Below are positions 3,692 through 62,600 of a stretch of DNA of 64,000 nt, piece by piece (the stretch's first letter is position 1; every line of letters begins with the position of its first letter). Made by a program: the position numbers and the translations under genes. The notes under the pieces were generated by a model. That model did not search any database. It was not told the origin of the DNA and saw only the letters and a list, made by a program, of their open reading frames with translations. Source of the DNA: Coffea arabica (taxonomy: Eukaryota; Streptophyta; Magnoliopsida; Gentianales; Rubiaceae); assembly GCF_036785885.1 (NCBI RefSeq), contig NC_092312.1:26402001-26466000 (forward strand). Direction: 5' to 3'.

Positions 3692-4792
3692 ATGGGGAGA
3701 ATGAAAGTTTCCTTGGCCGCCTTAGTAACATTGGCTTTTTGTTTTTCCGCTAATGCCTGCCCGCCTGGGGATCGGGCAGCATTATTAGCTTTTAAAGCTG
3801 CCCTCAACGAGCCTTACTTGGGCATCTTCAATTCTTGGGCGGGCACCGACTGCTGCACCAACTGGTACGGTGTCAGCTGTGACCCTGACCGACGGGTCGC
3901 CGACATTGTCCTCCGGGGAGAATCCGAGGACCCCATCTTTGAGAAAGCCGGCCGGTCCGGTTACATGTCAGGTGAAATAGCAGCTTCTGTTTGTCAACTC
4001 GACCGGCTCACCACCCTCGTCGTCGCAGACTGGAAGGCAATCGCGGGGGAAATCCCGGCTTGCATTCCGTCCTCGTTACCCATTCTCAGAATCTTCGACA
4101 TCGTCGGAAACCAGATCTCCGGCAAGATTCCGGCCGACATAGGCTCACTGGGTCGACTAACTGTTCTCAACCTCGCCGACAACAAGCTCACCGGTGCGAT
4201 TCCGCCGTCGATTGTCAACCTCGGGAGCCTCATGCATCTCGACCTCACCAACAACAAACTCACAGGAGAAATCCCCTCTGACGTCGGAAAACTAACCATG
4301 ATGAGCAGGGCACTGTTGAGCCGTAACCAGCTCACCGGTTCAATCCCCAGCTCATTTGCTAACATTTACAGGCTGGCCGACATTGATCTATCCATGAACC
4401 GGATCTCCGGTTCGATCCCGGCTCAACTCGGAACAATGCCGGTTCTGTCAACCCTTAATCTAGACAGCAATCGACTATCCGGAAGCATACCGACGAGCTT
4501 ATTGAGCAGTGCCGGGTTAAACGTTTTAAACATCAGCCGAAACAGTCTGGAGGGCAATTTACCCGACGTTTTTGGACCGAAAACTTATTTTACGGTCCTT
4601 GATTTATCGTATAACCAATTGCGCGGTTCAATTCCTAAATCACTATCATCGGCAAAGTACATTGGGCACTTGGATTTGAGTTATAATCACCTTTGCGGAC
4701 CGATTCCGGTTGGCTCACCTTTTGATCATCTTGAGGCCTCTTCATTTGCTAATAACGATTGCTTATGTGGATCACCACTACGTACTTGTTAA
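3692..4792 (+). CDS. DRT100-like leucine-rich-repeat protein
   Basis: Single-exon gene of 366 aa, close in length and layout to Arabidopsis DRT100 (DNA-damage-repair/toleration 100) and related secreted LRR proteins. Residues about 1-22 form a signal peptide ending before CPPGDRAALLAFKAAL, the start of the LRRNT_2 cap, whose cysteine pair is in DCCTNWYGVSC. About nine plant-type LRRs follow (repeated NxLTGxIP and LDLSxN motifs), ending in a C-terminal cysteine cap (NDCLCGSPLRTC). There is no transmembrane segment and no kinase, so a secreted or wall-associated protein is expected. The DRT100 name comes from partial complementation of bacterial repair mutants; a role in plant DNA repair is not established, and polygalacturonase-inhibitor-like or wall functions are equally plausible. 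The coding region is clearly more GC-rich than its surroundings. A second ATG at codon 4 could also serve as start. Confidence 0.92.
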   Translation: MGRMKVSLAALVTLAFCFSANACPPGDRAALLAFKAALNEPYLGIFNSWAGTDCCTNWYGVSCDPDRRVADIVLRGESEDPIFEKAGRSGYMSGEIAASVCQLDRLTTLVVADWKAIAGEIPACIPSSLPILRIFDIVGNQISGKIPADIGSLGRLTVLNLADNKLTGAIPPSIVNLGSLMHLDLTNNKLTGEIPSDVGKLTMMSRALLSRNQLTGSIPSSFANIYRLADIDLSMNRISGSIPAQLGTMPVLSTLNLDSNRLSGSIPTSLLSSAGLNVLNISRNSLEGNLPDVFGPKTYFTVLDLSYNQLRGSIPKSLSSAKYIGHLDLSYNHLCGPIPVGSPFDHLEASSFANNDCLCGSPLRTC

Positions 4793-7106: not shown

Positions 7107-9431
7107 TCACATCTCTGACTCAAACCCTATGTTCCAGAATCCTTCAGGAGTCAGAGGAGGAGCATACCTGTAACGATGTCTTGAAACTCCATCATGATGC
7201 TCACACCGCATGTTTTGTCCATTGCCATTCTCCTCCTTACATTCATTGGGAAGAACAGCATCATAGAACTTTTTGCATTGCTTGCATTCAATTCCTTTCA
7301 GGTTTTCCCTCACAGTTTTCTTTCTTACTGGTTCCACAAACTTGAAATTTGATGTTCCAGGCCTCTGAGGTGGGATTTGACACTTTTCACGGTCAACATT
7401 CATGTCTTCTGTCTCGTCATCAGAGCTATTGAATTCTATGTCTTTTTGAGCTGGTTCTGGAGGATTACAAATTTGATCCTTAATGGCATTGCCTAAGTCT
7501 CCTCTAATTTTCTCCAAGGGGGTATCAAGAAAATCATCATGGAGATCAGGTCCAAGTTTACTCTGGTTAGACCTCGTATTTCTCCAATAAGACACAGGAC
7601 GTTTTGTTCCAGCTGGTGGGCAAGATTTTACACTGGCAAAGGTTTTTGGTTGGATAGAAGTTCTTGACCTAGAAGGGGAGACAGAGTTTGATCTTTGATT
7701 TAACTGGACTTCCTTGTCATTCTTCAACTCTTCTCCCTCACCTTTCCTTCTTTCTGCTTCACCACTAACACCAGAGGCATTTGGACCTTTGTTGACATCT
7801 ATATTGCCAGATACCAAGAGTTAAATGAGGATAAGTGCATACTAATTTCCAAAAGGGGCCAGGAGGGGGACGGGAGGATGTAAAAAACAAGAAAGCTAAG
7901 CATATCACAGTCATTAACTGTTTGTAGAGTCATCTGGATAATGTTCTGTGGCACGATCATCATAAAACAGTGGAACATTTAGAAGATTTCAGCACTAGGG
8001 ATAGAGAAAAAAGGACTTACCAACCGAAGTTAATGGGCTATGATTCAGCCCCAAGGTGTCACTCTGATCTTCCATTCTATTTTGGGGCAGCGCATTTCCT
8101 GTAGTAAGACCATACTTTGAACACAAAAAGTTGTACTGAGATTTGAGATTCTTATAAGCAACAATGACTTCCTTTCGTTTCTGCTTTTCAGACATTAACT
8201 GGGAGTCTTTTGCTTCAATCTGCTGAAGCAACTTCCCGTGTAATTCCATTTCTTCTGAGGACCCCTGGCTTCCCTCTTGCAGATTGGGTTGATGTATATC
8301 AACCTTCTCTTCCGGGCCTCTTCCTAGTTTCTCCAGAAGCTGTCGCTTCTCCTTCACAAGCTCTTCAAAATCCTTCTGTATTTTCAACTTTTCAAAATTG
8401 TATGAATCAATCTGCTGCATCAGCTGTTCTTGCAAAATTCTTCCTTCTTCCACTTCATCATTTTTCTTTCCTATCTCCTTCTCTAGAAAATTTATATCAT
8501 TCTGTAAATTTACTAGTCTTGTGGCGAGTAGCCTTTTCTCCTTCTCATATTCGTTCAATTGCTGCTCATGCTCCATTATTTCCGAGGCCTGTGATTCGAC
8601 CTTTTTCAGGAGATTCTCCCGCATTTTTCTTCCCTTTTCAATTTCCTCATTCTTTTTTCTCAGTTCCTCCTGAAGCTCGTCAATCTTCCCATTCATAATC
8701 CCAAATCTTCTAATAATTAAATCTGCATCTCCTTGGTGATCTGTCAACTGTTCCTCTTCTTTATCCATCATTAGGGAAGTATTTGATCGAACCATTTGGA
8801 GAAGTGTAAGCTGTAATCCCATTGCAGCATCAAATTCCCTAGTCTTGTTTGCTAGCTCTGATTTCAATCCCTTGACTTCCCTCTCCAGATATGTGTGCTC
8901 TGTAAATAGCTTCCAATGTTTGTCATCAAGTTCTTTCAGCTCCTTGTCTCTGTCTTCCACTAGCTTCTCTGCGACATTATACAAATCATGCCACTGTTTC
9001 ACTTCTACCTGCAATGCGCCTACTTCTTTAGTCTTCTGTTGCAGGTCTTCTTGGAGACTGCGAATACTATCTGGAGACAAGCCAATACTAGCAAATTCTT
9101 CCCTCTCCAACTTCAGAGAGCTGATTTCAGCACAAAACTGTTGCTTTTCGAGCTGAAGCTTTCCAATTTGAAGTAGCAGATCTTTTTCTCTCTCTTTGCA
9201 AGCATTTTCCGCAGATTCTCTGGCTTCAGAATACAACCTCTGAAGGGTCTTAGATTTTGCCTGAAAATGCGGATAAATTTGACTGCAAAATACATATTCA
9301 ATCTGGGAAATCCTATCTTTAGCTTCCTGAATTGTGGCAACCAGAATAGTACTGAGCCCTGATATATACTTGAACTCCATGCTGTCATCAGTAGACCCTA
9401 ATTGTGGTGACTTCTGCAAATTTCCATCCAT
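7107..9431 (-). CDS. COM1: COM1/GR1 (CtIP/Sae2-like) DNA end-resection protein
   Basis: Two coding exons on the minus strand, 9431-8021 and 7798-7107, joined GTTG|gtaag ... atatag|ATGTC in phase 1, give 700 aa. The family (CtIP, Sae2/Ctp1, plant COM1 or gamma response 1) works with the MRE11-RAD50-NBS1 complex to trim DNA ends at meiotic and damage-induced double-strand breaks. Residues about 60-440 are almost continuous coiled coil, expected for tetramerisation. The C-terminal Sae2 domain is clear: a CxxC at residues 642 and 645 (ECKQCKKFYDAV), then CEHHDGVSRHRYRYAPP and the family terminus EGFWNIGFESEM. An acceptor (ttggtag) directly before the ATG implies a leader intron, with its donor CAAG|gtttca near 10045. 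At 700 aa the protein is longer than I recall for Arabidopsis COM1 (around 590 aa), the extra being in the coiled coil and linker. Identity is confident from the terminus. Confidence 0.93.
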
Positions 9432-12558: not shown

Positions 12559-14352
12559 TCAATTGAAGAAGCTGAATCTCTGACCCGCTTTAACTTTCTT
12601 ATATACATCCATTGCTTGCTTCACCATTTCATCTTGGGCAAGAATTTTAGCTCTTCTTTCACAAGATGGATGAGTTGAGAATGCATTTTCATCTGAACCA
12701 TACAGGCTATGCCACCATCTTACCATTGGAGCATATCGAGGGTTGTAGCCAGCTGCAGCCATTAGCATCATTCCAATATGATCTGCTTCGAGCTCATCCC
12801 TTTGAAAGAAGAAACAAAGACAGAGGTCCTCTTTTATGGTTTCTATGGAGTTGATGAGGCATAAAAGTGCAGAATCAAATAAGAAAAGGGAAAAAATGAC
12901 AAGTTCACTGATCTGAACCATGAGAGCATTGCAACACTGATGCGATATAGAAAATGACCTCTCTCACTGGAATATAGCAAAGTGTTTGCAAGAACGACTT
13001 ACCTCCTTGAGAGGAAAGAGTAAATCAAAGCCAACAACAATCCAATTGGTAGCATACCAACATGACGGAGAAAAGGCGAAACTAGAAGGACATGAAGCCA
13101 TAAGCCCCTCATGAAAAGCTCCGCTTTATGGTGTGCCAATCCGTGTCCTACCTGTTATAATCGGAAAAGCAATATATATCACCGCAAATTCTTTGTTCTG
13201 CTTGTTTCACCATAATAAAAATGGAAAATAGTTCCACCTGAATACCAAGGGTACACGACCAAATTATTGGGCATAACTAAATAGGATACCATCCAATCAG
13301 CAAGTCAATATGTAAGCAAGAGAGACAATCAACTTGTATATGAGTATAACATCTAGAGAAAGTGGTACATCAAAAAGTATTCAACGCAAACAGCCATTCC
13401 GCACCTCATGCGACAGGCTAGTTGCTATAACAGCATCAATAAACGCATCAAAGGAGTCTGCATGTTTGATCATCCTTCTACTTTCTTCGCTTCCTGCCAA
13501 CGTTAGCACCCCAGTGTAAAATACAATCTTTCCATCAGAAAGATACTCAGCATTATGAAAATCAGAATCAACCAGCATCACTTCCCAATTCATTCCTTCC
13601 ACATGCTTAGTACCATATCTTATCCCAAATCTTCCATCCCTTCTTTGTGGGCTTATCTTCTTCTGACCATCATCAGATTGAACAGCCATGCTAAAATGAT
13701 CACAATCAATTTTCTCAGGAGAGTAAATAGAAGCATGGTAGTCATGTTGGAGCCCCAAACCATCATACATTCCTTCAAGTATCTTTCCTAAAATCTTCCC
13801 CACTCGAACACCTTCTGGGCTTGTTGGGGAGAGTATTTTTCCCCTGTATTTCCTTTGATAGTTCTCCCATCTTACCCTGTCGAAGAACTTTGACAGCAAG
13901 TCAGTACTTAGCACCAGATGAACTCTATCAGAACAAGGAACCACCTGCAAGCTACCAAAGATCATAACAAAGACCACACATTTACCCACAGATCTCATAC
14001 GAATCCTAAGCCATTCCCGAAAGGGAGAAGAGGGTTCTTCGCCATTACTAGCTTGGGAAGAGTAACACATTCTTCTTCTTCCATTACTTCCAAGTAGTAC
14101 TAAAGTTGTATTATTGCTAGTACTAAATGATTTCTTAACATTTTTCAAGCCAAGCCCAGATAAAGACGTAAACCTTGAATATTTTCTTACAGGCATTATG
14201 ATGGACTTCTCTATTTGAAGTCTTTGCTGTTGCTGATGACGCAGAAACCTGAACTTGGTAAAGAAAGCTGCATTTTGGTTGAAAGTTGGAAGCTTTTTCT
14301 GGGTTGTGCTGAGGAAATTTGGGAGCTTTGATCTGAAATGCGAGAAACCCAT
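12559..14352 (-). CDS. OMA1: Mitochondrial OMA1-type M48 zinc metalloprotease
   Basis: Three minus-strand exons: 14352-13405, 13151-13003 and 12799-12559. The junctions CATGAG|gtgcgg...aacag|GTAGG and AGGAG|gtaag...caaag|GGATG keep frame and give 445 aa, about the length of Arabidopsis OMA1. The first junction falls inside the active site and splicing rebuilds HEVGH (residues 315-319), the HExxH zinc motif; the third ligand lies in DELEADHIG (E370). The basic, Ser-rich N-terminus fits a mitochondrial presequence, and a hydrophobic segment (KCVVFVMIFGSLQVVPC) fits an inner-membrane anchor. OMA1 is a stress-activated inner-membrane protease that acts on OPA1-type proteins in animals and supports respiratory supercomplexes in plants. 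An upstream in-frame ATG at 14394 would add 14 residues; I prefer 14352 because a degenerate duplicate near 16844 begins at the matching methionine. Confidence 0.9.
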
Positions 14353-20442: not shown

Positions 20443-21155
20443 TAGGGGTGAGGTGAGGCGGTGAGCAGATTCGGTTCGTACCGAATTCATAACCGATTTC
20501 AAATTCAATTCGATAATTTGAAATCGGGTATTTGGTAATTCGGTACCAATTCGGTGCATACCGAATTCACTGAATTCTAATATGGTATAAAATAGGTAAT
20601 GAGATTATGAATTTGATAACAATCGATTTCGAATTCAAAATTCGGTAATTGAAATCGGGTACTGCATTACCGCATTCGAATACCAAATTGATATATAAAA
20701 TTATATAATATATAGATAAATGCTATTTAGTATTAGTATATACTACTAATACTTTATTATATTATATAGGTAAATGCTATTAATAATAATTAGTATATGG
20801 AATTATCATCATATCATGTACTTATAATACTAATAATATATAATAATGTACAATATATTTATTTTATTTTAGTATTTATTAATTGTTATATGACTACAAT
20901 AATGCATAGTAATACATTACAATATAAGATAACTATAATACTTATTATTTTATACATGAATAACATACTAACATGACTAGAATTAGATAATAATTAATAC
21001 ATATATGTATAATACTAAATATTAAACAATAAACATAATTAGTAGATTTAGATATTGGTAATTTGATACATCATTCATGTTTGAATTATTGAATATTTGA
21101 ATGCGTAATCTATAACTTGCAAATATTAGTGTACTCTAAATTTACATTACATATT

Positions 21156-21835
21156 CACTAATCTTAAGGCTTTAAGTATAGATAAGACAACTAAGCAGTG
21201 TAAGTGAATGTATATGAATTGCAAATCACTGTATTAGTGTATTGACTTTCACAATAACATATGTAAGTAAATAAGTTTAATTTTGATTTGAAATAAATTA
21301 TAAGTTTGTAACTAACATAACTTATCACTAATCATTGTAATTTGTAAGTTTGTAACTAATATTACTTATTATTAATCATTGTAAATTATAAATTCATAAA
21401 TTATTCTAATCATTGTACAGTCTAAGGTTTATTCTAATTTAAATTAATTACTTTTTATGTGTTCCTTAAATCATAGACTAATATTAAATTGTAGGTATAA
21501 GTGATCAAATAAGTTAAAATTCATATTATCTATTTACTAATCTTAAGGCTTTAAGTATAGACAAAATAACTAAACAGTGTAAGTGAGTGTAAGTGAATGC
21601 ATGTGAGTTGCAAATCAAGTAAATAAGTTTTTTTTATTTGAAATAAATTATAAGTTTGTAACTAATGTAACTTATCACTAATCATTGATTCATTGTAATT
21701 TGTAAGTTTGTAACTAATATTACTTATTATTAATCATTGTAACTACTAACTAAATTAGTTTAAATTAATCACTTTTTATGTGTTTCTTAAATCATAGACC
21801 AAGGATTTTAGGTATAAGTGATCAAATAAATGTCA
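21156..21835. repeat. Imperfect tandem duplication inside the hAT-like element
   Basis: Two direct repeats of roughly 300-360 bp, about 21156-21518 and 21535-21835. Shared landmarks in the same order are AATCTTAAGGCTTTAAGTAT, GTAACTAATATTACTTATTA, and TTAAATCATAGAC followed by GGTATAAGTGATCAAATAA. The second unit is shorter by internal deletions. Non-coding, very AT-rich. Confidence 0.75.
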
Positions 21836-22062
21836 ATTAAACCACAAAATGATTTGAACATAAGTAATGTGTTCAATTATGAATAAATTTGGGGATCGAA
21901 TCAGTAATAAATTTTAAATTATTGAGGAGCATAATGAATGTATTATAATTTAGGAGACCCAATTTATAAATTAAAAATTACAAAATCACTTCATTTGGGA
22001 AAAGTCGGATTTCATCTTCAGCTGATGAAAAGTGAGAAAGCAACCGTTGCAAATTTGCAATA

Positions 22063-22297
22063 GGGCAAATTATCCAATTGGCCCTTTAACTCTTTGTCTA
22101 AGTAAAATTAAGCCCCTCATCTATTTTTTGCTGACTTTAAGCCCTCGAACTTGTAAAATGGGGAACCCGTGGCCCTTTCAGCCAGTTTCTCCGGTTTTGC
22201 AACCGGATGACCAATTCACACGAACGCAAGTGTGCTTCTTTCAAGGGTATTTTTGTCCTCACATTCTAAGCAAAAAGGGCGCACATAGTCCACCTTT
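22063..22297 (+). repeat. Left terminal inverted repeat of the Pack-MULE
   Basis: Inverted partner of 23503-23737. The outermost sequence is GGGCAAATTATCCAATTG. The right-hand copy differs at about 11-12 of 235 positions, with mismatches concentrated in the inner half. Confidence 0.93.
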
Positions 22298-22353
22298 CTA
22301 TTTGATTTCCCTCACTCCCCTTACTCTTCCCTGCGCAACCCCCACGCAATCCC

Positions 22354-22755
22354 ATGGCCGTCTCTGTCGCCACCGCAGTAGCCGCGGCCGCCGCGGCCTC
22401 CCAGAAGCTCTCTCTGCTTACAACCCCTCCTCATGACAAGCCCTTCTGCTCTTCCTTCTCAAAAACCCTCCTAAAACCCTGCCACCCCGTCACCCACACC
22501 CGCAAAGTCCACTGGACCAGTGTCTCGGCCGCTTCCAAGAAGTCTTTCTTACCCTTGGAACATGATCCAGCGATCGCATCCCAGTGCAAGCCGGAGTTAC
22601 AGAAGCACCTCCGGACCCCACTGTTCGAATTTGGGTCGAGTCCACAGGTGGATTCCGAGTCACAATCCGTTTGTTTCCGGCAAATGGGTTCACTAGGCGA
22701 AACCCACTGCAACTCCAGGCCAGGCTGCGGCCACCTACTCACGGGCAACGAGTAA
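22354..22755 (+). CDS. Chimeric open frame in the Pack-MULE (transit-peptide-like N-terminus)
   Basis: A 133-codon frame. Its first about 67 residues (starting MAVSVATAVAAAAAASQKLS, continuing Ser/Thr/Lys-rich to SVSAASKKSF) look like a plastid transit peptide or first exon of another nuclear gene. I do not recognise the donor gene. From about codon 68 onward the frame runs antisense through the captured wall-associated-kinase exon, giving a meaningless tail. The fusion point falls near 22553, next to a splice-donor-like GGTAAGA on the minus strand, where the kinase-gene fragment ends. Whether it is transcribed or translated is unknown; it may simply be a fortuitous frame in captured DNA. Confidence 0.4.
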   Translation: MAVSVATAVAAAAAASQKLSLLTTPPHDKPFCSSFSKTLLKPCHPVTHTRKVHWTSVSAASKKSFLPLEHDPAIASQCKPELQKHLRTPLFEFGSSPQVDSESQSVCFRQMGSLGETHCNSRPGCGHLLTGNE

Positions 22756-23295
22756 TCCAAGTTGACAAAAGCCCGGTACGCCCGGCAACCCGCATCTCTC
22801 ACCCGAATGGAATAAGAAGTCGCCGACCCGCCCGCCCTGAACGTGCAGCATATCTTCGAATTCTCACAAGCGCCGCCATCGCTGACACTCCTGGTCCCGT
22901 TGATAAACGTATGACAGAGACTGCTTGAGGTACAATTCAAAGGAGAGATCAACAGAGTCTGGGTACAATTGTGGTACAAGATGGTGTTGCTGTTGGTGAT
23001 GTTGAAAGGCAAGGAAGGGGGAGGGTTGAATGGTGAGACGCTGGAGTTGAGGGGAAACGGAGGTGACCGGGTAGGTGTTGTTTAAGGTGTCGAATAAAAG
23101 TGAGCCGGCGCTGCAGCGGAGCTTGTAGAGTTGGTCGCCGCAGGTGGGCCCGATGCTTAGTGGGTAGGGAACCGGCGTGGCGCCGCAGTCCGGGCAACGC
23201 TGAGCGGAGAGTGTAGGCTTGGAGAATGTTACCAGAAGCAAGGTGCAGGTGGCCAGGAGGAGGAAGTGGTGGCGAGGGGCTGAAGAGATCGCCAT
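22553..23295 (-). pseudogene. Captured WAK-like receptor kinase extracellular exon, frameshifted
   Basis: Minus strand, start codon at 23295. The N-terminus is a signal peptide followed by CPDCGATPVPYPLSIGPTCG, the GUB_WAK_bind galacturonan-binding domain of wall-associated kinase-like proteins (WAKL15/20 type). The frame breaks near 23015-23025 in a run of C on the coding strand. The continuation lies in the next frame (PFNITNSNTILYHNC, later CCTFRAGGSATSYSIRVRD and CFCNSGLHWDAIAGSC). It ends at a donor-like site SCSKG|gtaag near 22553. The transmembrane and kinase exons are absent, so this is a first-exon capture, broken by frameshift, within the Pack-MULE. Captured leader DNA probably extends to about 23490. 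Confidence 0.88.
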
Positions 23296-23502
23296 TGAAA
23301 GAGAGGTATTGGTTGTGGATAAAGATGGGGTTGGATCCTTTTGTCTGATTTCTCATCTGAAGCCTAAGTCTTGCATCTTTGAGAATATTTATTTTTCTTT
23401 ACCCAATTCAGTAGTTTTTGGGAAGTCCGTTTACGAGTCTAGGCGGGCATTTGGGGAAATTTTGGCCACTGTATTCCCCGTTGATTTCTAAGCCAGTGGA
23501 GG

Positions 23503-23737
23503 GAAGGTGGATTATGTGTGCCCTTTTTGCTTAGAATATGAGGACAAAAATGCCCTTGAAAGAATCACACTGGCATTCGTGTGAATTGGTTCTCCAGTTG
23601 CAAAACCGGAGAAACTGGCTGAAAGGGCCACGGGTTCCCCATTTTACAAGTTCGAGGGCTTAAAGTCAGCAAAAAATAGATGAGGGGCTTAATTTTACTT
23701 AGACAAAGAGTTAAAGGGTCAATTGGATAATTTGCCC
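23503..23737 (-). repeat. Right terminal inverted repeat of the Pack-MULE
   Basis: Inverted partner of 22063-22297, ending GGATAATTTGCCC and followed directly by the 9-bp target duplicate TTTGCAATA. Confidence 0.93.
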
Positions 23738-23746
23738 TTTGCAATA

Positions 23747-24690
23747 TTGCATAGTGCCGTGACTGCCGTCACCTAGGGCTTTCACAGCACTAACACTCCC
23801 AAGTCCCAAGTCCCAAGTCCCAAATCGAAGCTGCTCTCCGCCTCTCCGGCCTCCGCCAGTCCGCCGCGCTCTACGTCTCCTGTCGGCTGTGTCCTGTCGT
23901 GCTGGTTCATCGCTGCCGAGTGTCGAAGACGAAGCACCAATATCTCACTGGTTCATCGCTGGTTCATCCCTGCTCATCTCTGGTTCGCTTAGGTAAGTGC
24001 TCCTCTGTTTTTGGCTCTGTGTCTCTGGCATTAAAATGGGCCAAGATCGACTAGGAAATTTGTTATCCTGAATTGATAAGGGGACGAAATCTGAGCTTCC
24101 AATAGCAAACTCTAACTGTTGTAGTAGTTTAGATTAGGTGTGATATAACATAAGCTTTGTATTTTATACACAAGAAAGCTCTCTCCAGTTGTGCAGCCTT
24201 TAAAAGTTAAGGCCTTGGGGAAAAATTCCACCTTTTATCTGTTAGAAAAATTAAAAAGGAAAAAACTTGCTAAAATGAAAATTTTACCTCCTTGTCTGTG
24301 GAGATTCTCAATCTCTGGTGCACATCTAGTGAAAGTACGGCTCCAGAAGTTGTACCTAGGATTCTGGATATGAATTTTCTGCAATGTGTAAAAGAAGAAA
24401 CATCTATGTATAAATAAGCAGAAAGGCCACCTTAATAAGCTCAATAAAAGTAATCAGCTCCTGAATAAGTAATGGAAAGCATTGGAGCAAGTCTAGAACA
24501 TATCGAAGAGAGCAATTTAGCTTTTATAACTACAAACCAGTAGAAGGCCTACATATGTCTAGCTTCTTTACATATTTTCAGTCTAATATTTGTAGCTTTC
24601 TCATGGCTTGCGGGGGTTGGTAGTTGCTGAACTATAAAGATTGGTTTTATATATTCTCTTAATTTGCTTCAGGGGTTTTTTTTACATAAT
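23747..24690 (+). other. GC-rich leader-like segment of the hAT-like element
   Basis: After the Pack-MULE comes a C/G-rich, leader-like stretch (about 23770-23994) with a tandem CCCAAGT triplication, several TCATCGCTGGTTCATC-type short repeats, and a good splice donor (CTTAG|gtaagt at 23995). It then passes into AT-rich DNA. It resembles the untranslated leader of an autonomous element's transposase gene, but no coding exon follows. It could be mistaken for the LSM7 first exon; a better LSM7 leader exists at 25200-25327, outside the element. Confidence 0.4.
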
Positions 24691-24868
24691 AGATGAATTC
24701 GGTTAGACCGAATTCATTACCGTTTTCGAATTTGAAATCGGGTACCGCATGAATTCGGTAATGCCCAATTCGAAATTGAAAACGGTTTAGATTTCTATAG
24801 GTGCAATAACCGAAAAAACCGAATTCAGTGCACCGATTTACCGCATTTGCACTGAATGCTCACCCCTA

Positions 24869-38644: not shown

Positions 38645-39178
38645 AAATTGGTTTATGCTCAAAATGTTCTGGTTCACGGTCGAACCAGTAACTCCCGAGG
38701 ACCGAGGCTGGTTTGCCATAGAAGTTTTGGTAGACGTATGGAGGTTCTAGAACACTCTAGACGTTTCTAGAATGGCCGAATTTTGTACATAAGAAGCTTT
38801 AGGGACTAATTAAAAGTGCAAAATTCTAGATGTTAAATTGTCTAATTAAAAGTGTGGAGTATTCTAGAATTCTTTAAATCTTTTTGATTTGTTTCTGAAT
38901 AGGCCAAACTCAAATTGGTTTGTGCTCAAAACGTTCTGGTTCACGGTCGAACCAGTAACTCCCGAGGACCGAGGCTGGTTTGCCATAGAAGTTTTGGTAG
39001 ATGTATGGAGGTTCTAGAACACTCTAGACGTTTCTAGAATGGCCGAATTTTGTACATAAGAAGCTTTAGGGACTAATTAAAAGTGCAAAATTCTAGACGT
39101 TAAATTGTCTAATTAAAAGTGTGGAGTATTCTAGAATTCTTTAAATCTTTTTGATTTGTTTCTGAATAGGCCAAACTC
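38645..39178. repeat. 267-bp nearly identical tandem duplication
   Basis: Units 38645-38911 and 38912-39178 are direct repeats with a period of 267 bp and only about four or five mismatches by eye, so the duplication is recent. Each unit contains the palindrome-rich phrase GGTTCTAGAACACTCTAGAC, then GTTTCTAGAATGG, and a second TTCTAGAATTC. No open frame. Immediately follows the family Y SINE. Confidence 0.9.
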
Positions 39179-46246: not shown

Positions 46247-49200
46247 ATGAAGGACACTTCATCTTTTTGGGTGGAAGAATCCAGTGACCCATCCTTCCTT
46301 CCTATGAAAAAAAGGAGAAAAGTGAGGAAACTAGAGTTTGTTGGGTGGGGGTCAAAACCTCTCATGGAGTTTCTTGAATCAATTGGAAAGGATACCAGCA
46401 AGAAGCTGAATCAGTACGAGGTTACAGCCATCATGAATGAATATATAAATGCCAATAACCTAGCTGATCCTGCAAAGAAGAAGAAAATTATGTGTGATCA
46501 ATGGCTTTATGCTCTTTTTGGAAAAAGATCCATCCCTCGGATAAAGGTCTATGATCTGCTGGAAGCTCATTTTGCTGAAAACCATGATAGTTCAGAAGAT
46601 GATTCTCAATACAGTTCAGAAGAGGAGGGTGGTAATATAACCTATATGAACAAGAAAGCTTCAACTTTAGAGCACAAATTATCTTACCAACAGAAAAAAG
46701 TCCCTGAAAGTCCTAAAAGCTGTTTTGCCGCTGTCATTCCTGAAAATATTAAGCTTGTCTATCTAAAAAGGAGTCTAGTTCAGGATCTTGTAACTGCCCC
46801 TGAAAGTTTTGAAGATAAATTGATGGGTAGCTTCGTGAAGATTAAATCTGACCCCGATGATTACTTACAGAAAAACTCCCACCAGCTGCAGCAAATAATA
46901 GGTAATTGTATTTTATCTGCGTGCATCTTTTTCTAATGCTATTTCCAAAGTTAGCATCCTTTGCAAATTCATTCACTAGTAATGCATATGAATCCATAGA
47001 ATTTGTTCTTGCTTTTAATTAGCAAATGATTGGATAACAATTGTGCAATTATGATCAATTGCATAAGGACTGTATGTCTGGTGCTGCAAGTGTTTCTCCC
47101 TCGTATTATGAAAGAAATGAGAAGGCCGACCTAAAAATCAGTGGAAGAATTCATTCTAAGGAATGCCAGCCAGTCAGCTAATTCTTTACTTTTACTTGGA
47201 AGCATATTGTAATCCTACATGAAACATGAGGTCATATGTTTTTCATATTCAACTTATGAGGTTGGAAAAAATGCTCCTTCATTTACAAATATTGTGCTTA
47301 TAAGATTTTGGGTTCTTGTTTCTGTTATATGTGCAATTTCATAGGATAAGGAAAATCCCCATTTGAATTTCTGCCCTGCAAACAATATCTACAGATATGA
47401 TCTGTGATTTGATGAGAGTGGTTCTACATACTATTCTTGGTAAAAATATATTGAAAAGGCTGGTAGTTCCAGACTTTTTGAACACCTCATGAGTTTTTTA
47501 ATACATCATATGCATAATGAGAAGAGTCACTGGAGTAGTTCTGATAGTATAGTTTTTCCTTTTTTTCCAGGTATATGTTATATCAGTTCTCTCAATAGAC
47601 ATTTCTTAAAGAACATTAAAACGGTACTTGAATACTATATTGTCTGTGTCATTTCTTTTTGCTGTTTACTGGTTATTTATGACTTTCAGTCTTTAAACAG
47701 GTATTCAGATGATTGAAGCAGGCGATGGTAGTAAAGAAGTTTACCTTCGACTTTCAAATTACATGAAAGAAGTACGAATTCAAATGTTGTCCGATGATAA
47801 CTTCTCTGAGGTAATTGGTGTGTGCTTCTGAAGCTATTGAAGTGTAACAGGAAGTAGGATTGCTAGAGAAATCAGAATTGGTCACTCAGTCATTAATTTA
47901 AGTTTCTTCCAAAGAGGGCATAACAAAAGATGTGGCACCTTGCATTTGGACTTCTCTCTTTTTATGGTGAATTGAGAGAAATTTTTTGAAAGAGGATAAA
48001 AAGATGTATTGAGTGCAGGGATCAGGACAAATAGACTTGCTAGGAGTGTCTTTTCTTTAATGTCATGATGGCACCTAATCATCACTGTGTGTAGAATGAT
48101 GTTTTGTAGAAATTTCCTAATTCTCTTTTTCTCGAGTTCTTTTTGGAACTTAGTTTTTAATTTCTTCTTGTTGAATATTGAATAACAACGAATTTGATAC
48201 CAAAGACTTGTTGGGGTTGAACCATGGGTTTGCGTGCATCAAATATTCAAGTTGAATAAGATGTAAAAGCTTTTATTCAATTCATTAACTTTCATCGATC
48301 TCAATCTGAATATCAGTCTGTCTAGAGTCCTTGTAGGCATTGTCTCATGAGATGCCCCCATTTAGTTGGGGGTTTTGTTCCTTTCTTGGCCTTTAAGGTC
48401 GGTGTTATCCCTCAGACAGGTCCTTTCTTGTTTTTTTGGGGTAAGTGGGAGGTCTACCCCAGACCTCATACTTACAATTCCTCCCCCCTTACCACCCAAT
48501 CCAACCCTCCCCCCCCCCCTAGACAGGTCCTTGGTTTGTCTTTGTGCGTATCACCCTTGGAAGGGCCAAGAATCTAAAAGTCAGCCTGAGAAGCAGGAGA
48601 TAATCTTAAACTTCAGTCTGTATGTTCTTCTCTGGAAAGAATAGATATAGAAATAGTAAAGCACTGGGGATCTTGTCAATCAAAAATTATTCCATCACAA
48701 AGATGAGCTAAAATGGTTTAAATAGGATGAAGTCTTCTTGAAGAGAATACCAGATTCCATTTTGTCTTAATTAGCTTCTCCCTCATTTTATGGAATGGCA
48801 GGGAACTTTAGATCCTCAACATCCCAGCAAATGAGGTAGAGGGGCATGAAAAACAGCACTGGCAATGTGCATATCACCCTCCTCTCTTGCCACCCAAATG
48901 AGATGAGGAGCACGAAAAAGTGCATTTTCAATGTGCATATGAAAGTTCTCTCTGCCACCGATATTTCCCCCTGCCTTCGCAATTTCCTTGTTTTTCCTTA
49001 GTACAGTGAAGTACTCTTTTCTTCCAAATTCAGCAATATTGCATAATGCTGCCTTGAAAAGTTGTTAAAATTTCACTGGAACCATCTAATGATGTCATTC
49101 TTTTTCCTTTTGGTAACCTAATCATCATTATCTCTTGTTAACTCATTTTCATCAATTTTTAAATGTTTCCTCGTGCTATTTTTTTAAAACCTTCAATATA

Positions 49201-52700: not shown

Positions 52701-54713
52701 TAGCATCATTTAAATGAACTTGATGTAGCATTTAGCAGGTCTGGTTAATGTATCAAGCTTCAACTGTCATCTGTTCTTTCAGAGTTCCTTCAAGCAGAGA
52801 AACTGCAATTGTTTATTTTTGGTTTAATACTATCAATGATTGGACTTGCTGTTTACAATCATTCTAGTGGATTTCATTGTAGATCCAAGCACTTGTTATC
52901 ATGAGGTTATGGTTAATTGTATTGGGCAGCTCTGCTTCTTAATGTACTAGTGATTTTGGTTATTATTGCTCTCGGGAGTATTTTGCCTGCTTCTCTAGGG
53001 AGAGCTTCAGGAATCCTTTTGGGTCTTTTTTGTTGATGGACAAGAAACTAGGATTCTCATTGCTGATGATATGATTTACGAGTCATTCATGGCCTTATTT
53101 TTCTAATTTAGTCTTTTTACAGTTCAAGGGTGAAATCAAGTTTTTCAGTTTTCAAATCTTACTAATATTGTAAAAGGAGTTGCTGGGTTCAATTTTCTTA
53201 TACTGTTGGCAATATTATGGTTATATTCAGGTTGTGCAGATGTAGGGATCCATTCCAGACATAGTGAGGGCAATTCAGATAAGGAGATTAGTGGTTCTCT
53301 TTGTGAAATTCCATGCGTAGAAGATGTAAATGGTAAATTTGTTTCTTCATGCCCTCTTATGTGCTGAAATTTGTTCCCTTTCTCATGACGATGGCAAGGC
53401 TTTGAAGCACCTTTTATTCTTTCCTTTGCTGTAATAAAACCAGCAACATCTAGCTATGTAAGATGAAACGTGCATGCATTGAGACAAATATATTTTAACA
53501 AGCAGCAACGAATTGGACCTGTTACATATATTTAGGTAAAATTACTGCTGTCGTTGTTGGATTACATTTGGTTATGAACTGCTCAAGTCTCATTGAGCTT
53601 AAGAGTAGCGATCAATAGAAAGCTAACCTCTGCTTAGCAGGAGAAAAGAGTAAGTTACACATTTTGAAAAGTAATTATTCAATTTATTTTTTTCTTTAAT
53701 TAGGCTAATATCAAATATTTGTTGCCATAACCTCTTCTTTTGGACCAGGAGTATATGGCACCAAACTCTTGACCTGCATTGTAGCATCTAATTACGAAGC
53801 CTGGTAATTTGATTTCCTATAGAAGGAATATTTTTCTTTTTGTTTTATACTGGATCCAAAGCTGAGTATGAGATGTTTAGGCAGGTTGAGGAAAGGGGTG
53901 ACTAAATATACTTTTTTCTTCAAGTCATATTGGATCATTTATTGCATATGCAAAACAAGAAAAGCTTTAATCTTGGAATGAGCTTTGATTTTTGGGAGCC
54001 TTGTGCATTTTTTACCATATTGTGGTTAATTTATTTCACTCAGAATGAATAGACCGTGTTGGCGTGTTTTAAAATTGTTTTTAAGGAATGCTGGTAAGTA
54101 TAATGCCATGTTCAACTGGCTTAGTTGGATCTCTGAGGTCAATAAACCAAGTGCTTAGTAGTCTTATTATCTCAGTTGATCGATCACCACGTCACCGTCT
54201 CCATACCTAATTTAATATCGAGTTGCTTTACACTGAAAGAGTTATATGCGATATGTATGTATGACTTGGTGTGAGGTCGATCTTAATGCAGACTGCCAAC
54301 ACTCGGATCTTGTTCAGAAAGCAAGAGTGCCTGTCGTCGTGAATGGTGAGCAAAGCAGTACAGATGTGCAGGCTGTTGATTCAGAAGACAATGGGGGTTC
54401 TCCGGGAATATCAGAAAAAGAGGTTAAACCAGCTCAAGTGATTGAATTAAGTGACGATGAATCTGAGGTTGAAGATGTGAAGATTGAAAAGCATACTGCT
54501 GTTGGAAACCCTGACGAATGTTTATGGCATTATTTGGATCCACAGGGAATGGTGCAAGGTCCCTTTTCAATGACTTCGCTAAAGCGATGGAGTGATGCCA
54601 ACTACTTCGACCGAGACTTCAAGGTTTGGAAGATGGGTGAAAGCCTGGACAAGGCGGTCTTACTGATTGACGCTCTTCGCCAGAATTTCCCTTGTAAAGA
54701 AATAGAGAATTAA
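46247..54713 (+). CDS. SWIB / Plus-3 / GYF domain protein (At5g08430-like)
   Basis: Eight coding exons: 46247-46901, 47701-47810, 49331-49390, 50335-50385, 50794-50864, 51755-51963, 53231-53332 and 54292-54713. Together they make 559 aa, close to the Arabidopsis At5g08430 type. Residues 20-28 are a basic cluster (MKKRRKVRK), and 28-112 a SWIB/MDM2-like domain (FVGWGSKPLMEFL...YDLLEAHF). From about 165 to 300 runs a Plus-3 domain (IPENIKLVYLKRSLV, later EVRIQMLSDDNFSEAECQDL). A helical segment follows (LLQKFIDRANEKGW, then MFEHLERKEQL), then VIELSDDESEVED (469-481), which looks like a SUMO-interacting motif. A GYF domain lies at about 495-545 (WHYLDPQGMVQGPFSM). Such proteins are nuclear and linked to transcription and chromatin, some binding histone H3 or Argonaute partners; the exact role of this subfamily is unknown. 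Intron 5 is a U12-type AT-AC intron. Confidence 0.93.
49682..49982. repeat. (GA)n microsatellites and a 61-bp tandem duplication in an intron
   Basis: A pure GA run spans about 49682-49717. Two direct copies of a 61-bp unit (starting at 49824 and 49885) contain TTTTCAGGTAAAATGTATGT followed by ACTTCATGTGGATAGATCAA, each ending in GA repeats. A looser version of the same phrase precedes the first GA run, suggesting three rounds of duplication. All within an intron of the SWIB/Plus-3/GYF gene. Confidence 0.85.
50865..51754 (+). other. U12-type AT-AC intron
   Basis: The 890-bp intron between coding exons 5 and 6 of the SWIB/Plus-3/GYF gene begins ATATCCTTG, an exact match to the U12 donor consensus ATATCCTT, and ends TTTAC. 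A perfect U12 branch-site consensus TTCCTTAAC lies at 51730-51738, about 17 nt from the acceptor. Splicing gives GA|A in phase 2 and joins GWRRE to MFEHLERKEQ, matching the continuous family sequence. No GT-AG alternative restores this junction. Read-through would reach a TAA at 50884-50886. Confidence 0.93.
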
Positions 54714-59625: not shown

Positions 59626-62600
59626 ATGAAGCTAAGCTCATTTCTGGTTTTGCGACCACTTAGCTTCTTCATAATTTTGGTGAGACTTCTGAAATTTTGT
59701 TTAAACTATATCGTTGATGCCAAAGATAAACTATTTCTTTCTAGTTGCCATATTCTGGACAAAATTGAACTTTGACTTGATTACTGAAACTTCAGGGGTT
59801 TCCTTTGCATGAAAAACTTGAATTGTGTAGTATCTTGGAGTCCTGATTAAGGAGCCCCTTTCCCCATTTCTACATCGTTTTCATGTTTTTCCATTGACTT
59901 AATTTTGTCAAATGTATATAACTTTTGGAAGATGTTTGTATTTCAACGTGCAGTCTTTCATAGTGCTGCTGCTGCTACCTGCTTTGCTGATTCCTTTATG
60001 GATCAATAAGATTAATAGAATCGAAACAGAAGCCAAGTTGAACTCCAACAAGGTCCATCAAGGAATACTATCAGGGATTGAGAATACAGCAAAGTTGTTG
60101 TCACCAACAAATCATTCACTTGCATACTTACAAAGATTTTTAAGCTCATCTTTGAAGACAACTGATCCTCCATTTTCAGCAATAGAAACTCGGGTTGATA
60201 TGCCTTTCTGTCTTTGTATCGTTTTTCACGTGGGATAACATTAATTGTTATAGATACTATAAGTATTCAAATGCTAACATTCTGAAATTTTTCTTTATCT
60301 GGTGGTAAACTATATAGGTGGCTCCTACATTATTTTTTGCTTTGTCTACAATTCCACACCTGTCCCAGATTTCATATATTGCCTTGGACGGCTTGTTTTT
60401 CTCATATTACATCAGAGGGGATCAACCTTTCGCTGTATATTCCAACACTTCATTTTCCTCCATTCCCCATGCTACTGCGACTAATTATACTTGGTACAAT
60501 CAACCGGTGAGTCGCGACACAGGGAAGCTTTGCGGAGAAGCAACGAGGACTCCTCCACTCTTAGACTTTAATTCAAGCTGGTTTCTAGAAGTGTTGGAGA
60601 GTGGAAATGGATATTCTTCAGTAGGAACTGGCTGGAGTACTGATCAAGATCCTCTATTACTTATGAGTTTTAGCATTGATCAAAGAAGAGCTTTATCGCT
60701 AGGCTTTCCTGTTGAACCATTTACTGATTTCTTCTCGAATGACATAAAAGTTTATGGAGGGGCATTTTATCTGGCAACAAATAATGGAACAGTACTCAGT
60801 CAAGGGATCCCAAATACTCAAATCGTGAAAGCCGGTAATTCAGTTTCAGTTCAGATATGGAAACCAAATGGTGATCAAATAGGCAAGGTTGGTGATGTTG
60901 CATGTCAGTCCAATGACAGCAACCTGACAGCTTCTGTTTTGGAAATATTGGAAATGAAGTATCTCTTTTACTGTTCGCCTCTTGAAATTATTGGAGTGAA
61001 ATTGGTAAGTTACCTTTCTGCTATGCCTTAACAGAAAAAACAAAGTTTCTTTTCCTAAGGCATCTATTATAATCTTAAATCCTCCAACAGTGTCATAATG
61101 CCTTGTATGCTTGGTTGTATGAAGTGCAAGAAAAGTTTGTACATTTTCATACATTTGAAGACAGTAAGTATGAATTTGATGGCTTGAACATCTTCATGTT
61201 CATGGCGAGGTAACTGCACTTTGTTCGTATTGTAGGTGTATGTGTTAGCTATACCATACGGGGGACTAGTAAGTTTCTTGCACCAGAATGTCAAATTTGC
61301 ACTTGTACTCCTCGTGCTAATGGTCCTTGCCATGGCTATCTCCATTTTCACATTCATTTGCTCCTCTGTTAGAGCTGCAAGGAGAGAAATGTATCTTTGT
61401 GCTGCACTTATAAAACAATTGGAAGCAACTCAACAGGCTGAAAGGAAAAGTATGAACAAAAGTCTTGCCTTTGCAAGAGCAAGTCATGATGTCCGTGCAT
61501 CTCTGGCTGCTATTATAGGTTCTATAAGGTTATGTAGTGTAAAAGTAGCTCATGGATCAGATTTGCAGGAAAATTTAACCCAAGCTGAAACTAATGCAGA
61601 GGATCTTTTAGGTTAGTCTTGGAGATTTTGTTTTGCATGTTGGCTCAATATATTAGTCATTTCAACTCAATACTAAAGATTTTGTAGGTATGTTGAATTC
61701 CATTCTCGACACAAGTAAGATCGAAGCCGGGAAGACACAACTTGAAGAAGAAGAATTTGACTTGCAAGAACTTGTTGAAGATGTGGTTGATTTGTATTAT
61801 ACCGTTGGTTTGAAGAAAGGTATAGATGTGGTATTGGACCCCTGTGATGGATCTGTTGTGAAATGTTCTCATGTTAAAGGTGACAGAGGCAAACTTAAAC
61901 AAATTTTATGGAACCTATTGAGCAATGCTGTCAAATTTACTTCTGAAGGACATGTCTTGGTTAGAGTTTGGGCTAAAAAACCTAGTTTTGAAAACAAAAT
62001 ACTTTCTGCAAATCAGAAAAATTCAATCAGATGCATGTCATGTTTTCTTTTCCAGACTGATGGTACCAAAGAGGACTTGGAAGTCGTTAACAGAATCCAA
62101 GAGGATCCAAGTTGTATGGAATTTGTATTTGAAGTGAGTGATACTGGAAGAGGAATTCCCAAGGAAAAGCGAAATATGGTCTTTGAAAACTACGTTCAAG
62201 TCAAAGAGACAGCACTTGGACAGGAGGGAACTGGTTTGGGGCTTGGCATTGTTCAATCTCTGGTATGTAGACTCACTTCACCTCTCTATTTAATCCTCAT
62301 TAGTCCTTAGACTGTCGTGACATTATGTTTTTGTCCAATGTTAGGTTCGGATTATGGGCGGAGAGATTGCAATCGTGGAAAAGGATCGAGGTGAAAGGGG
62401 TACTTGTTTCAGGTTTAACACCTTCTTTACTCCATGCGGGTATGGGACTGATAGCCAAGAACATGATCACGACATGGAGTCACATGGTAGTCAGTATTCA
62501 AGTAACTTCCATCAGCAGCCAGGACTGAATACTACAATCCATAGCCCCAAAATAGAGGGATCCCATGTTGTACTCTTCCTCTCTAGTGATGAGAGGAGCA

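Follow-up and report, generated by a model that had tools for sequence, protein, structure and literature searches.

A Pack-MULE carrying broken fragments of two host genes, in all probability captured one after the other

Introduction

Rice Pack-MULEs were reportedly described by Jiang in 2004. According to excerpts of three papers, the Pack-MULEs of Oryza combine long TIRs, target duplications of 9-11 bp and GC-rich gene fragments, carry no transposase and often exist in several copies (PMC8903248, PMC8277862, PMC4858842), all of which applies to the element described here as well. Outside the grasses, excerpts give counts of 1,447 Pack-MULEs for sacred lotus (PMC4053705), 220 for tomato and 46 for Arabidopsis (PMC3310237), so that such an element is not exceptional there. 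Multi-gene products derived from MULEs have also been reported (excerpt of PMC4858842). In a Pack-PIF lineage, two gene fragments were gained stepwise and the copies form nested groups, as in our case, but that lineage belongs to the PIF superfamily, and its additions of 163 and 58 bp are explained by the fusion of neighbours (excerpt of PMC8903248). For animal Pack-TIRs, template switching followed by transposition is described (gap-filling and FoSTeST models), which is the kind of route that we favour below, and microhomology is found at one or more breakpoints in 67.6% of the cases; the work concerns animals, and its authors deem the relevance to plant Pack-MULEs worth exploring (excerpt of PMC8277862). 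The same excerpt, and that of a review, leave the gene-capture route of plant Pack-MULEs open. Our literature search found, within its wordings, no paper on sequential or multiple captures, and none of the literature searched treated Mutator-like elements, amidophosphoribosyltransferase and transposons together.

Here we analyse a window of 64,000 nucleotides (C3:26402001-26466000) that contains, at positions 22063-23737, a Pack-MULE which we call element W. The assembly that we searched for the TIR family and the donor genes comprises 1,197,963,845 bp in 131 contigs.

Results and Discussion

Element W is 1,675 bp long. Its left TIR (22063-22296, plus strand), of which the last ~17 bp also resemble the 5' flank of the captured ASE gene introduced below, and its right TIR (23504-23737, minus strand) both measure 234 bp and differ at 11 positions (95.3% identity); the arms of 235 nt given by the repeat finder include a base of the duplication that pairs by chance. 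The target site duplication TTTGCAATA (22054-22062 and 23738-23746) is 9 bp long and identical on both sides. The interior has a GC content of 0.544 compared with 0.357 for the whole window, and none of six ORF queries from W scanned against Pfam gave a transposase family. The earlier note on this DNA, which had claimed TIRs of about 235 bp with about 95% identity, a perfect 9-bp duplication, a GC-rich interior and the absence of a transposase, was accurate on all these points.

W resides in a high-copy host repeat (20443-24868) with the ends TAGGGGTGAG / CTCACCCCTA and the duplication CTCCCAAC / CTTCCAAC, which is 7/8 alike. We take this repeat to be hAT-like, since its ends and duplication have features known for hAT elements; its left part (~21138-21829) holds diverged internal repeats. 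When 40 of 299 candidates were scored, the right flank of W matched at least 12 other places over 999-1000 of 1,000 bp with 96-98% identity. We then joined the flanks of W across one TTTGCAATA, with the element removed, and used this as the query for empty sites. All four paralogous repeat copies that were fetched align ungapped at the join over 230-240 bp and contain one TTTGCAATA. The homologous locus C4:26844650-26846600 holds the same repeat, again with one TTTGCAATA and without W; a 7-bp gap lies to the right of the join and none at the join itself. On the right side, which is the side that was read, this locus has 557 bp of flank beyond the repeat end in common with C3 (97.5%). C4 is either the homeolog or another haplotype of C3, and in the simplest reading W would have inserted after the C3 and C4 copies separated. 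An intact host gene or absent 9-mers, named in the earlier note as the observations that would overturn it, were not encountered, as the empty sites carry one 9-mer.

A genome-wide search for the TIR family, as the earlier note had proposed, was run with the outer 34 TIR bases and up to 3 mismatches. It gave 154 forward and 147 reverse matches in 1.198 Gb, while the reversed control pattern gave 0. From 456 candidates, 40 were scored and 20 relatives fetched by similarity to the left TIR of W, which includes ASE-like bases and thereby biases family-wide statements towards ASE-bearing members. Perfect target duplications of 9-10 bp flank 17 of the 20 relatives, and two more have a duplication with one mismatch; at L050, where the TIR match covered part of one end only, no duplication was found. 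The interiors of L050 (C2:4242790-4244683) and L040 (C2:4133701-4135594) are 100% identical, suggesting a local or an assembly duplicate, and in this ASE-bearing relative inspection by eye shows a nested insert whose ends resemble TAGGGGTGGCAAT, with CTTACAAC as its 8-bp duplication. L045 and L046 have one and the same duplication and identical interiors and hence look like a single insertion that was duplicated later.

Two sister copies located elsewhere, L031 and L032, contain the same interior as W and are flanked by perfect 9-bp duplications of their own. Over 1,674 bp, W differs from L031 at 10 and from L032 at 12 positions (99.3-99.4% identity to W), L031 differs from L032 at 9, and both have lost 1 bp that W retains. 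The left TIR of W is 100% identical to that of L031 and 99.6% to that of L032, and its right TIR is 99.6% identical to both. Within each of the three copies the left and right TIRs differ by ~5%. Because this difference is the same in the sister copies, it was inherited and provides no measure of the insertion age of W. The insertion can still be called recent, as the earlier note had done, with the reservation that TIR identity does not show it: the label rests on the 10-12 differences between the copies and on the homologous site, which is empty.

Among the matches listed, at least 9 pairs of TIR-family ends lie ~5.8-6.2 kb apart, and two of these pairs were fetched. L070 and L071 (6.1 kb) have TIRs that are 87-91% identical to those of W over 213-241 bp and perfect 9-bp duplications, of which one consists almost wholly of A. 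Their frames contain PF10551 (MULE transposase), PF03108 (MuDR DNA-binding) and PF04434 (SWIM) above the Pfam cut-offs. With Mutator domains and the same TIR family, they are candidates for the transposase-bearing partner that the earlier note had suggested looking for. The transposase frame is interrupted by a stop in L070 and open at this place in L071; given this stop, and with two of the nine listed 6-kb pairs read, a working transposase is not proven. From copies with target duplications of their own we infer that W was probably mobilised by a transposase acting in trans.

Nearly all of the interior of W is explained by fragments of two genes. On the plus strand, we found two blocks that derive from a chloroplast amidophosphoribosyltransferase (ASE) gene. 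Block 1 (22280-22541; W 218-479) contains the 5' leader, the ATG (22354) and part of the transit peptide, and corresponds to positions 163-425 of the donor L061 on C4 with 94.7% identity (14 of 263 bp differ, ~5%). Block 2 (23303-23486; W 1241-1424) is an internal coding segment collinear with block 1 and corresponds to L061 1111-1294 (94.6%); its first 4 bases, GAGG, are common to the neighbouring block at the join. In translation, 23303-23491 matches the chloroplast amidophosphoribosyltransferase 2 of Arabidopsis (6lbp_A, E 1.2e-24), and a WAK leader at 23303-23490, considered before, was rejected since 23303-23486 is ASE. The donor L061 has an open frame of 572 codons from stop to stop, with glutamine amidotransferase and phosphoribosyltransferase domains; the second donor copy, L062 on C3, is also open, and the two differ at 7 of 274 positions.

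The minus-strand block (22543-23306) extends from 11 bp upstream of an ATG (23295) through an extracellular exon towards its 3' edge. We found that it derives from a wall-associated-kinase-like (WAKL) gene present as L054 (C4) and L055 (C3), which presumably encodes a receptor of the WAKL20 type. The WAK label was chosen because the minus-strand ORF of W matches GUB_WAK_bind in Pfam (E 8e-08, 33.0 bits, cut-off 29.4) and because a kinase exon lies downstream of L054 (E about 1e-44); the donor itself scores 28.0 bits, slightly below the cut-off. Donor matches cover W 481-955 and 950-1244, with 53 donor bases missing between them. This deletion, located at 23012-23017 between direct AGGAAG repeats of the donor, breaks the WAKL frame and is present in all three copies. 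The block differs from each donor copy at 21 of 764 positions (2.75%), L054 and L055 differ from each other at 13 of 834, and 12 informative sites split 6:6 between them. Tumour-necrosis-receptor cysteine repeats matched the WAKL frame weakly (E 0.016 and 0.026), as spectrin did the ASE ORF (E 1.3), and we attribute both to chance. Both donor genes, for which the earlier note had recommended a search, persist elsewhere in the assembly, with frames open over the stretches read.

Pieces of the WAKL exon were also seen at other places. A 112-bp piece, 98-100% identical to W, is located at L063 685-796 (C8), L064 719-830 (C16), C15:45245941 and C11:15786023; in L063 and L064 it begins at most 2 bp from the 53-bp deletion point and lies in other, repeat-rich surroundings. 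This exon may thus have been captured a second time, independently. L056 1484-1836 (C9) and L057 1500-1852 (C7), two loci that are 97.2% alike over 1.27 kb, contain 353 bp of the 3' part of the exon (98.6-98.9% to L054), which extends slightly past the W fragment.

Long TIRs, a 9-11-bp duplication, transposase-bearing TIR relatives, an interior of host-gene sequence and no transposase of its own are the marks of a Pack-MULE, and W has them all. The sequence data support its assignment as a genuine non-autonomous Mutator-like transposon (Pack-MULE) carrying broken fragments of two host genes. The earlier note had already proposed such an element with two host-gene fragments in opposite directions, which the TIR family and the donors confirm, but its picture of two divergent first exons captured side by side has to be given up. 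With ASE starting at 22354 (+) and WAKL at 23295 (-), both 5' ends face the TIRs, so that the fragments converge, and two collinear ASE blocks flank the WAKL block. A WAK-like exon on the minus strand and a transit-peptide-like exon on the plus strand had been called correctly; the borders had not, the WAK part covering ~22543-23306 rather than 22553-23490.

At the left junction (22536-22541) the ASE and WAKL sequences overlap by a microhomology of 6 bp, CAAGAA, for which the chance is 0.0016-0.0018 in random joins; W then lacks ~7 bp of the WAKL donor. At the right join the overlap is GAGG, 4 bp with L055 (chance about 0.017) and 3 bp with L054. With L054 as the donor, only 3 bp of microhomology would remain at the right join, and the 7-bp deletion next to the left join makes the shape of the latter uncertain. 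No TIR match was found in any of the seven donor stretches read (2.1-4.1 kb each, three of them WAKL). Microhomology at both joins and donors without a TIR favour, but do not prove, template switching during repair over a fusion of neighbouring insertions. In such a fusion, as argued for other Pack-TYPE superfamilies of rice and maize (excerpt of PMC8903248), two family members would have flanked WAKL exon DNA, lost their inner ends and been mobilised as a whole by their outer ends. Indeed, the new DNA in W has family sequence on either side. However, the two ASE blocks keep the strand and order of the donor and do not overlap, and the three WAKL donor stretches read are free of a family TIR. 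Inner TIR remnants or repeated element sequence around the WAKL block were not seen in W, although later loss could hide them. Two truncations would be needed in addition, and the microhomology at both joins is against a fusion as well, which we therefore regard as an unlikely origin of the WAKL block.

The relatives allow us to read the order of events. Positions 1-245 and 1007-1207 of the W interior are common to the smaller relatives L041, L042 and L043, while positions 246-1006 are, in the set of 21 elements compared, confined to W, L031 and L032. L041 keeps L061 166-650 and 1108-1294, and thus contains ASE DNA where W has WAKL. The segment L061 425-650, which is missing from W, is kept in L041, L043, L044 and L040, and L042, L045 and L046 align there. 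ASE block 2 of W agrees with L041 and L043 in derived bases and in its 3' capture junction. In addition, the Cys codon of the REEC motif, TGC in both donors, is TGA in all nine relatives that keep it (seven without identical pairs); we take this residue to be the catalytic cysteine. Together, the ASE-only relatives, the derived bases and junction of block 2, and the TGA make a single ASE capture, followed by WAKL, the best reading.

Could both pieces have been acquired in a single event, with the ASE-only relatives arising by a separate ASE capture or by loss of WAKL? In line with this, block 1 of W is nearly as far from L041 (11 of 254 bp differ) as from the donor (14/263), and it retains 9 bp that are absent from L041. 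As the distance between W and L041 nearly equals that of each to the donors, W did not arise recently from L041 itself. The ASE donors differ more from each other than the WAKL donors do, so that divergence alone cannot order the captures. But L041, L043, L044 and L040 keep ASE sequence that W lacks, which a loss of WAKL cannot restore, and separate ASE captures are opposed by the shared derived bases and the common 3' junction. We consider a single event very improbable; one-step capture of both genes is likewise disfavoured by the smaller relatives with ASE alone and by the ASE blocks that flank WAKL.

That the inverted repeats happen to enclose a working host gene, or a chimeric gene that has been domesticated, can practically be dismissed: there is a plus-strand ORF of 133 codons from the ASE ATG in W, but through a 1-bp difference it has 113 codons and ends differently in L031 and L032, the WAKL frame is broken and ends after 143 codons in all three copies, and the homologous chromosome has no element at this site. 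The last two points also led us to reject a single intact host gene. A protein role of the passengers is unlikely; with their frames broken, any effect they have would be at the DNA or RNA level. Given the converging fragments, transcription starting in the left TIR would yield RNA that is sense for ASE and antisense for WAKL, and transcription starting in the right TIR would yield the opposite. Promoters have been reported in MULE TIRs (excerpt of PMC3310237).

Overall, we are highly confident that the best explanation for W is a Pack-MULE that captured ASE first, later acquired WAKL in place of the middle of ASE and was presumably spread by a transposase provided in trans. A MULE would first have picked up ~1.13 kb of the ASE gene. 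The ASE-bearing lineage would then have lost its coding capacity, with the change of the REEC Cys codon to TGA, and shed internal ASE sequence. During break or gap repair in one such copy, synthesis may have switched at microhomology into the WAKL gene and back, which would replace the middle of the ASE segment by WAKL. The new ASE-WAKL-ASE element would finally have multiplied by transposase supplied in trans.

Other subfamilies carry different middles. The L033 type, with 10 full-length interior matches, carries, in antisense, part of a gene whose C-terminus is RING-like, with L077 and L078 on C7 and C8 as the donors; the RING was read by eye, and Pfam gave no match for the fragment at E 0.01. 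That this fragment is a spliced copy (the donor has ~86 extra bp) was rejected, because the donor frame reads through. L047 and L049 combine the left half of the RING-like fragment with a kinase C-terminus (Pkinase E 2.4e-20), presumably of the AGC class, with the best other places on C18 (99%) and C17 (98%). L044-L046 contain a CAP fragment (E 2.4e-18), whose best matches elsewhere, at 93%, are on C12 and C11; L048 has an AT-rich middle. The five donor genes are all paired on neighbouring-numbered contigs (C3/C4 twice, C7/C8, C11/C12 and C17/C18), which suggests that the genome has doubled or that the assembly is phased.

The first ~72 bp of the W interior, which comprise the ASE leader and the ATG, are matched in all 20 relatives, a count biased by their choice through the TIR; L070 and L071 gave no match to these bases. 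One may speculate that this MULE lineage is a cassette in which the ends and the ASE leader are kept while the middle is repeatedly swapped by template switching, with WAKL, RING-like, RING-like then kinase, and CAP as the middles. We offer this tentatively, as a possibility that we would not bet on. The kept ASE leader might help transcription. If the cassette is real, gene capture by plant Pack-MULEs would be traceable join by join via surviving intermediates.

Elsewhere in the window, ORFs with Pfam matches are located at 3692-4792 (leucine-rich repeats), 7107-7817 (SAE2/CtIP C-terminus), 12562-12963 (M48 peptidase), 46247-46936 (SWIB and Plus-3), 54246-54713 (GYF) and 61690-62310 (histidine-kinase ATPase); three further ORFs scanned against Pfam gave no match. 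A direct tandem duplication of 267 bp, 98.5% identical, is found at 38645-39178.

Conclusion

In summary, W exemplifies a known type of element and leaves the view of what Pack-MULEs are unchanged; stepwise capture and multi-gene MULE products have been reported before. A single assembly here holds both donors, relatives with the first gene only, W in three copies and the empty homologous site, together with relatives with other secondary captures and transposase-bearing relatives. Since the series is complete in one assembly, the order of events and the joins can be read. Moreover, the difference between the two TIRs of an element should not be taken as its insertion age. Compared with the Pack-MULEs of Oryza, W is distinguished by a capture order that is readable in one genome and by a second gene that lies inside the first; from those of lotus, tomato and Arabidopsis it differs in its donor genes. 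Finally, in contrast to the Pack-PIF lineage, a block of 761 bp replaces ASE sequence in W, with microhomology at both joins.
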